Assembly (NCBI GenBank): GCA_903834705.1
Contig: CAILKF010000070.1
Span: forward strand, 1 to 46,706
Reading direction: 5' to 3'
Length of the DNA stretch: 46,706 nucleotides
From: an uncultured Actinomycetes bacterium
GTDB lineage: Bacteria > Actinomycetota > Actinomycetes > Nanopelagicales > Nanopelagicaceae
A program made the position numbers and the translations under genes. Numbering within the stretch: position 1 is the first letter of the stretch; every line of letters begins with the position of its first letter. This document shows, piece after piece, positions 15,670-18,599 of this stretch. Below the pieces are notes generated by a model, which was not told the origin of the DNA, did not search any database, and was given only the letters and a program-made list of their open reading frames with translations.

Positions 15670-16806
15670 TCATTTACGGGGTAAAAGAGTCGGCATTAAA
15701 ATGTATTTGTAGTTATCTATTTCTTTACCATCGGCTGTGGGGATTCCAGTTAAGACTGCAGCTTTTGTTGCGGTTGTGAATGCAATTTTTACAAATGGAG
15801 TGCCTACTGCGTTTAAACCTTCCATTAAAAACTCTGGATTAAACGCGATAGTGATTGGTTCACCGTTTAAGATAATATTTAAACCTTCTTCTCCGATGCC
15901 TTTTCCGTCAGCGGAACCAGCTTCGAGTTCTAACCTATTTGGTGTGAAGGTTAAACGGAGCGGGATTGTTTTATCTGTTACTAAAGCTACTCGGCGAACA
16001 GAATCTAATAATGGTGCTACTTCGATTATCGCTGTAGATGTAAATTCTGTTGGGATAACTTTTGAGTATTCCGGGTAAGAATCGTTTAACATTCTTGATG
16101 TTAAAGATTTTCCGTCGATAACAAAACCGGCCAAGTGTTCTTTCGCTGTGTTGGGTGTTAAGTAGATTGAAACATTTTTTGATGTTGTAAGTGATTTAGC
16201 TGCATCTTCTAACGTCCGCGCTCGAAGCAGTGCAGTGAGTTCTAAGTTTGGGTGTGTTGCCTCCCATTGAACTTCACAAATCGCTAAACGGTATTTATCT
16301 GTGGCTGTTAAGGTGATTGTGTCGTTTTTGATTTGAACAAATACACCTGTGTATTTTTGTAAAGATTCGTCTTTGCTTGCAGCAGTTGCAACTTGCAGAA
16401 CAGCTTTAGCGAAAACGTTGGAAGCGATAACGCCAGTTATTTCTGGGATTTCAGGCAATGTTGGGTAAGTCTCAGCATCTGTTGTTGGAAGTGTAAATTT
16501 CGCGCTTCCGGCGGTAACAAGAACTCGAGCGCCATCTAATTGGACCGTTACTGGTTTATTGGGCAGTGATCGAGAAATTTCGTTTAGTAAATGACCTGAA
16601 ACTAATACTTTTCCATTTTCGGTTACATCTGCAGAGAAATCTGCTTTGCTTGATTTTTCTTGGTTAGATGCAGAGAGGTGAACTTTGTTGTTGTCAACCT
16701 CAATAACAATCCCGTGCAAAGCTGGGTTAATAGGGCGGGTGGGTAAGCTTTTTGAAACCCAACTTACGGCGTCAGCTAAAGCGTGTTGATCAACAACGAA
16801 TTTCAC
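15670..16806 (-). CDS. dnaN: DNA polymerase III subunit beta (sliding clamp)
   Basis: Starts VKFVVDQHALADAVSWVSKSLPTRP; GTG at 16806 preceded by AAAGGGGGC SD; ends YILMPTLLPRK. ORF track start 16851 is probably too long. Confidence 0.96.
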   Translation of the reverse strand: MKFVVDQHALADAVSWVSKSLPTRPINPALHGIVIEVDNNKVHLSASNQEKSSKADFSADVTENGKVLVSGHLLNEISRSLPNKPVTVQLDGARVLVTAGSAKFTLPTTDAETYPTLPEIPEITGVIASNVFAKAVLQVATAASKDESLQKYTGVFVQIKNDTITLTATDKYRLAICEVQWEATHPNLELTALLRARTLEDAAKSLTTSKNVSIYLTPNTAKEHLAGFVIDGKSLTSRMLNDSYPEYSKVIPTEFTSTAIIEVAPLLDSVRRVALVTDKTIPLRLTFTPNRLELEAGSADGKGIGEEGLNIILNGEPITIAFNPEFLMEGLNAVGTPFVKIAFTTATKAAVLTGIPTADGKEIDNYKYILMPTLLPRK

Positions 16807-17157
16807 AAACGCCCCCTTTAGGTAGTTCCTTAACTCTCCTTGATGGTTCACACCTTTTCAAGTCTTGCTTTCTTTGTTCTCCACACAGGTTGATGTAATA
16901 GATATAAGTAGTAGTAGTAACCACACCACTTTTTTGTGGAAAAACCACAAAAACGCTGGTCAGCACCTTTTATTAAGTTTTTACACTGTTAATAAACATA
17001 GGATTTCTGTGAGGAACCAACCTTTGAGCAAGAACCAACCTTTTTAAAAAAGTTAGAAACAGAACAAAAGAAACTTTTACCCACAAAAACCCTTCCTTTA
17101 TCCACAGTTATCCACACCTTTCCCCCAGGCTGGGGGCAAAAGTCTTAAAACGGACAT
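16807..17157. other. oriC: putative oriC (dnaN-dnaA intergenic region)
   Basis: DnaA boxes TTACCCACA (17077-17085), TTATCCACA (17098-17106), TTATCCACA (17108-17116); near-box TGTGGAAAA (16935-16943); (GTA)4 tract 16908-16919; AT-rich flanks; gene orientation diverges here. Confidence 0.85.
17098..17116 (+). promoter_or_regulatory. tandem perfect DnaA boxes TTATCCACA-G-TTATCCACA
   Basis: Direct match to the bacterial DnaA-box consensus. Confidence 0.9.
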
Positions 17158-18564
17158 TTAACTACTTTTCGCCTGCTGTTTAATTCTATTGGTTAGCTCT
17201 GTCACTTGGTTATAGATAGATCGACGCTCGGCCATTAACTGGCGAATTTTTCTATCGGCGTGCATCACTGTCGTGTGGTCTCTACCCCCAAACATTTGCC
17301 CAATTTTAGGCAAAGAGAGCTCTGTGAGCTCGCGACATAAATACATCGCTATTTGACGGGCGTTGACCAACACCCGGGAGCGAGAGGTTCCGCAAAGGTC
17401 ATCCAGCGTAAGGCTGAAATAAGCAGCAGTTTGAGCCATGATCGTGGCCCCGGTTATTTGAGGGTTAGATTCATTAGGTATTAAATCTTTAAGAACTATT
17501 TCAGCAAGGCTTAAATCAACCCCTTGGCGATTCAAGCTAGCGAAAGCAGTAACGCGAATTAAAGCTCCTTCTAATTCGCGAATATTTGTTGAAATTTTGC
17601 TCGCTATATATTCCAAAACATCATCAGGAGCATTTAATTTATCTTGCGCGGCTTTCTTACGCAAAATCGCAATACGTGTTTCCAGTTCAGGTGGTTGAAT
17701 ATCGGTAATTAAACCCCACTCAAAGCGACTTCTTAAACGATCTTCCAATGTAGTTAATTGCTTCGGAGGGCGATCGCTTGAAATAACAATTTGTTTGTTC
17801 GCGTTATACAAAGTATTAAAAGTATGGAAGAACTCTTCTTGAGTACGTTCTTTATTTTCTAAAAACTGGATGTCGTCAACGAGTAGCACATCAAGATCCC
17901 TATAACGTCTTTGGAAAACAGATGCTTTGTCATCTCGGATTGAGTTAATAAAGTCATTTGTAAACTCTTCACTCGAAACATAGCGAACACGAACACTGCC
18001 GTATAACTCTTTCGCATAAGCGCCAATAGCATGTAATAAGTGGGTTTTCCCAAGTCCGGACTCACCGTAGATAAACAAAGGGTTATAAGCTTTAGCAGGA
18101 GCTTCTGCAACAGCAACAGCAGCAGCGTGAGCAAAACGATTTGAAGCTCCGATAACAAACGTTTCAAAAATATATCGTGGGTTAAGTTGAGAAACCTCTG
18201 TGTTTTTTCCTGAAGTGTTTTCAACCCTCCCAGAACTTAAACGAGGTGGAACAAACTCAATTTCAACTTCCGGTAAAGGTGAGTCAATAATCTCTAAGTT
18301 CTCATCAATAGTGACAGCGATATTAGTTTTCTCACCAAGCTCCCTTGATAGGACATCACTAACAATGCTACGAAGGCGAGTTTCTAATACGTCTTTAGCG
18401 AAAGCGTTTGGGGCAGCTACAAGAAAATTAGTCGCTCCGTTACCTTTTAATAAACCCAACGGTTTTGTAAGGGATAAAAAAGCTCTGTGTTGAGGGGTGT
18501 CGATCTCGACATCGGAAATAACACGAGACCACAAAAGGGCTAGGTCGGTTTCTAATACATCCAC
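17158..18564 (-). CDS. dnaA: chromosomal replication initiator protein DnaA
   Basis: Walker [40 protein letters not shown], DnaA signature [14 protein letters not shown] start at 18564 has an SD (GAGGG); the ATG at 18597 in the ORF track has none. Confidence 0.96.
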
Positions 18565-18599
18565 AGCGCCCTCATCTCGTCCTACCGGTATCCACATGT

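Follow-up and report, generated by a model that had tools for sequence, protein, structure and literature searches.

The gap between dnaA and dnaN contains what we consider, at a probability of roughly 93%, to be the basal unwinding system (BUS) of this genome's replication origin (oriC), and judging by its sequence the chromosome very probably first opens for copying at this site. The BUS is a known kind of module, represented here by a single-box variant. The window referred to below is the whole 46,706-nucleotide stretch of DNA that was analysed, which is one contig (C70) of a 124-contig assembly.

Genomic setting and sequence order

The block sits between dnaA (17158-18597, − strand) and the dnaN open reading frame (15670-16851, − strand), flanked by rnpA, yidC, rsmG, parA and parB on one side and by recF, gyrB and gyrA on the other (gene names other than dnaA were read from translations), which is the usual neighbourhood of a bacterial origin. 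On the reverse (dnaA-coding) strand the order is TGACCAGC at 16962-16955, 11 nt, the DnaA-box TTTTCCACA at 16943-16935, 14 nt, and the DnaA-trios TTA CTA CTA CTA CTT ATA at 16920-16903, followed by TCTATTA. The spacer ends in GTGGTGTGGT (16929-16920, reverse strand), and the (TAC)4 tract at 16919-16908 is followed by TTATATCTATTA. The + strand at 16920-16903 thus reads 3'-AAT GAT GAT GAT GAA TAT-5', six trios that all have a middle adenine. Re-reading the sequence returned exactly the bases and positions of the box, the spacer and the (GTA)4 tract at 16908-16919 given in the original prediction, which had interpreted the block as a DnaA-trio unwinding element. That interpretation agrees in order, strand and direction toward dnaN with the BUS of PMC8287927 and PMC10721633, and the succession of box, spacer, trios and AT-rich DNA is also that of the Bacillus-group loci compared. 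The features of the region are the following.

16955-16962, − strand: TGACCAGC, a copy of TGAVCWGS lying 11 bp ahead of the DnaA-box
16935-16943, − strand: DnaA-box TTTTCCACA, conserved position in the family, CCACA almost invariant
16921-16934, − strand: 14-nt spacer before the first trio, conserved in length, free in sequence
16903-16920, + strand: DnaA-trios, recognised by sequence, uniqueness in the assembly and family conservation
16893-16919, unstranded: trio tract with the adjoining AT-rich DNA, lowest 27-bp stability in the gap
16877-16885, + strand: reverse-oriented box-like TTCTCCACA, past the AT-rich segment, genus conservation 0.87
17098-17106, + strand: consensus DnaA-box TTATCCACA, paired with the box at 17108-17116
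17108-17116, + strand: consensus DnaA-box TTATCCACA, genus conservation 0.84-0.91
17077-17085, + strand: DnaA-box variant TTACCCACA, from the box scan
17158-18597, − strand: dnaA, 479 aa, base-capture residues mostly kept
15670-16851, − strand: dnaN open reading frame as listed, probable true start GTG 16806 after AAAGGGGGCG

The search rule of PMC8287927 places a DnaA-box within 16 bp of the trios; here TTTTCCACA, one mismatch away from TTATCCACA, lies at 14 nt and is the only box kept beside the trios, the counterpart of B. subtilis DnaA-box #6. A BUS has at least three successive 3'-NAN-5' trios, of which 3'-GAT-5' is the commonest, and the window has six in a row. The gap carries further boxes, as befits an oriC, and AT-rich DNA follows the trios where the helix is weakest: by nearest-neighbour stability no 27-bp segment of the gap is weaker than 16893-16919, which falls in about the lowest 0.1% of the window and is likely the unwinding element. 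Tandem DnaA-boxes, which the window lacks, are the commonest BUS form (57%) and are not required, single-box modules being counted as BUS (PMC8287927). Points against the assignment are the mismatch of TTTTCCACA to the consensus, the absence of one of the two boxes found in B. subtilis, a 14-nt spacer that is slightly outside the reported peak of 10-13 nt, the replacement of two DnaA residues that contact the trios in B. subtilis, a GC skew that lends no support, and 20 of 115 family loci that deviate from the single-box form. Allowing up to one mismatch, 0.05 copies of the 12-mer TACTACTACTAC would be expected in the window, and the perfect (TAC)4 occurs as a single copy in the 1.35-Mb assembly, located at the trio site; the block is not due to chance.

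Two further observations concern the ends of the gap. A dnaN start at GTG 16806 yields a protein beginning KFVVDQ after the start residue and is likelier than the listed start at 16851. Just after dnaA, at 17122-17136, lies a perfect 15-bp palindrome, CCCCCAGGCTGGGGG, of which many relatives retain only one half, as TTTACCCCCAG next to the box pair, so the hairpin is not the conserved part.

Conservation in the family

The family set comprised the intergenic regions of 115 loci, the window included. Many genomes of this family are single contigs of 1.2-1.5 Mb, and the closest named matches to the DnaA of the window genome are from metagenome-assembled actinobacteria; the family is presumably Nanopelagicaceae, the freshwater acI group. 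A scan for the box-spacer-trio pattern was positive in 92 of the 115 loci, a count that describes conservation because the scan patterns were picked after viewing the relatives; in the controls the pattern was found in none of these loci over 30 dinucleotide-shuffled rounds and in none on the opposite strand. Box and TAC are 15 nt apart in 83 loci and 14 nt apart in 13, with the trio phase fixed, which bears out the original prediction of a conserved phase and box spacing. The 20 loci without the 14-15 nt single-box form include tandem-box genera and truncated or misanchored loci.

Within the family the spacer measures 13-14 nt, compared with 13 nt (a 9-bp box plus 4) in tandem-box Actinomycetes. 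Its length is constant while its sequence drifts, apart from a short ..GGT/..AGT kept ahead of the trios, as expected if a protein bridges box and trios. The G-rich spacer previously proposed is present here as GTGGTGTGG but is particular to this genome, and is not a conserved property of the family. Mean column conservation in the genus is 0.92 for the trios, 0.89 for the box and 0.86 for the AT-rich block after the trios, against 0.64 for the spacer and 0.68 for the whole gap.

An inverted repeat, TTTTTGTGG-AAAAA-CCACAAAAA (16931-16953), surrounds the DnaA-box. Readings of it as a hairpin or as two head-to-head boxes were set aside: the nearest relatives lack the repeat, and it was therefore treated as incidental. 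Further toward dnaN, GTGGAGAAC (16876-16885 on the dnaA-coding strand, TTCTCCACA on the other) is strongly conserved in the genus. Read on the dnaA-coding strand, TTCTCCACA includes GTGGAGAA, and the site may be a reverse DnaA-box or a piece of the dnaN leader.

Alternative readings and strand skew

A promoter that overlaps the trios alongside origin function is possible. It is highly improbable that the trio and AT-rich block is a dnaN promoter or leader instead of an origin element. The block does precede the likely dnaN start by about 100 bp, the adjoining AT-rich DNA could act as a -10 region, and GTGGAGAAC further down is conserved; yet no sigma-70-like site was found in 16780-17200, the spacer at the expected -35 position drifts in sequence while keeping its length, and the RNA fold of the block reaches only -0.85 kcal/mol with no covarying pair. 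The promoter and terminator scans found none, and an Rfam scan of the window returned three tRNAs only. Such a promoter or leader would moreover leave the three-base pattern and the fixed distance to the DnaA-box unexplained. Slippage can produce perfect trinucleotide repeats and the segment 16968-16996 is almost as unstable as 16893-16919, but we give very little credence to (TAC)4 as a chance microsatellite beside ordinary DnaA-boxes, with opening elsewhere (for example at 16968-16996), given that the family preserves both the number of units and their phase, that one unit is repeatedly altered with the length unchanged, and that the area around 16968-16996 is less conserved in the genus (0.56-0.70).

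The GC-skew switch sought at 17 kb is absent from the window, a result that says nothing either way, as GC skew is not usable in this family: in a complete relative sampled at 20 places it is close to zero over most of the chromosome with no origin-centred switch, and AT skew changes sign only locally, at dnaA. The cumulative A-minus-T minimum of the window falls at 16-17 kb, which is partly a gene-strand effect.

Number of DnaA-boxes

In Streptomyces, Nocardia and many other Actinomycetes a pair of abutting boxes is followed, after 4 nt, by CTACTAC or a related row of trios. Within the window's own family, genera g4 (L166 and L168) and g8 (L115, L119, L120 and L147) also have two abutting boxes plus 4 nt, and this is presumed to be the ancestral form. 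In the DnaA tree these genera are placed near the base of the family, and a single box is found in the large crown group to which the window belongs; support at the deepest forks is 87/79 and 90/68, which leaves the number of box losses unfixed. The spacer of the window corresponds to the position of the second box plus 4 nt in tandem-box relatives, and the sequence comparison suggests that the family lost its trio-proximal box after it arose. In B. subtilis the upstream box alone is required for strand separation, and single-box modules occur (PMC8287927), so loss of the second box is compatible with function.

Middle base of the trios

To describe the trios independently of their own sequence, 90 Actinomycetes loci (two from the window's family) were aligned by their tandem boxes alone, with the trios ignored. 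Five consecutive C[T/G]A units with a 3-nt period follow the tandem boxes, and counts of the middle base, read on the trio strand, are 216 for A, 157 for C, 56 for G and 21 for T. A or C thus accounts for 83% of middle bases versus 45% in the downstream background (p = 1.9e-53), and C exceeds G by 157 to 56 versus 693 to 830 in the background (p = 5.6e-15); both p-values count the loci as independent when they are in fact related, and wrong box anchors at some loci dilute the signal.

For the third trio in the window's family, 45 loci have a middle A, 50 have C, and none has G or T. On the DnaA tree this pattern requires 11 changes between A and C, at least seven of them forced by well-supported branches, so shared ancestry alone is insufficient to account for it. 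A to C is a transversion, and A to G, usually the commoner mutation, is absent at this position. In B. subtilis cytosine may substitute for the middle adenine, its amino group contacting Asn187, and the same study raised the possibility that homologues differ in the sequences they accept (PMC10721633); deviant trios without a middle adenine have been suspected as well (PMC8287927). Switching confined to A and C, as seen at the third trio of the family, fits the amino-group rule measured in B. subtilis. In the portions of the open-access literature covered by our search, we found no mention of C-type trios occurring naturally in Actinomycetota.

An upstream element, TGAVCWGS

An 8-bp element, TGAVCWGS, stands about 11 bp ahead of the DnaA-box across Actinomycetota, the copy in the window being at 16955-16962 (− strand). 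Of 95 single-box family loci, 83 have a match at seven or eight of the eight positions 10-12 bp ahead of the box. Of 90 tandem-box Actinomycetes loci, 54 carry the element no more than 26 bp ahead of the box and 52 of these 54 have it at 10-12 bp, compared with 7.9% of random windows from those gaps, an enrichment that is somewhat flattered since the motif was defined partly after viewing the sequences scored. The narrow peak in distance at 11 bp is the stronger point. In other classes of the phylum, five of 20 anchored loci have a full match; the element was not seen in 12 loci outside Actinomycetes (11 Bacillota and one Acidimicrobiales), where the best match was six of eight positions.

It is possible that TGAVCWGS is a contact for a further DnaA subunit or a site for another origin-binding protein. 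We found no description of it: a search for literature on TGACCTGCG together with oriC gave nothing relevant among the matches listed, and a search on conserved sequences of Streptomyces oriC likewise gave no description of the element.

DnaA residues and a model of opening

The DnaA of the window was aligned to B. subtilis DnaA in 8btg and 10 residues were checked, with roles taken from PMC10721633. Eight are identical, namely (B. subtilis to window) Glu183 to Glu210, Asn187 to Asn214, Ile190 to Ile217, Ile193 to Ile220, Lys222 to Lys249, Glu223 to Glu250, Glu228 to Glu255 and Arg264 to Arg291, so that the base-capture, phosphate-contact and arginine-finger residues of this single-strand capture and oligomerisation set are retained except for Arg202, replaced by Gln229, and Asn196, replaced by Asp223. 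In B. subtilis the trio guanine is contacted by Arg202 and Glu228 and the third base by Asn196 (PMC10721633).

By analogy with B. subtilis and other species, DnaA-ATP would load on TTTTCCACA (16943-16935) through domain IV, and the AAA+ domains would then build a filament toward dnaN that grips the + strand trios at 16920-16903, three bases per subunit. At each step the first two trio bases would be drawn from the duplex into a pocket between adjacent subunits, and the weak AT-rich segment at 16893-16907 would open and receive the helicase.

Comparison with known origins

The oriC BUS of B. subtilis (PMC6669920, PMC8287927, PMC10721633) shares with the window a DnaA-box, a fixed gap, trios of the 3'-GAT-5' type, their strand relative to dnaA, AT-rich DNA, the location between dnaA and dnaN, and most base-capture residues. 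It differs in having two boxes where the window has one and a 14-nt spacer without a second box, in lacking TGAVCWGS (absent from the 11 Bacillota loci checked), and in its Arg202 and Asn196, which are Gln and Asp in the window. The tandem-box origins of Streptomyces, Nocardia and other Actinomycetes (among L020-L061) have the same succession of a TGACCTGC-like element, 10-11 bp, a DnaA-box, 13 nt and C[T/G]A trios. Unlike the window they keep the second, trio-proximal box, and many high-G+C members have 3'-GCT-5' trios.

Implications

The analysis identifies a very probable origin-opening site for a family of genome-reduced, freshwater-type actinobacteria (presumably Nanopelagicaceae), which is an expected result, and the comparative results on trio bases and TGAVCWGS are more useful than the single site. 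Swaps between A and C at the middle base in many lineages, seldom to G or T, provide natural evidence for the amino-group rule. Search rules that demand a middle adenine (PMC8287927) can consequently miss or misplace trios in high-G+C Actinomycetota, and TGAVCWGS offers a concrete target for finding other factors that act at actinobacterial origins.
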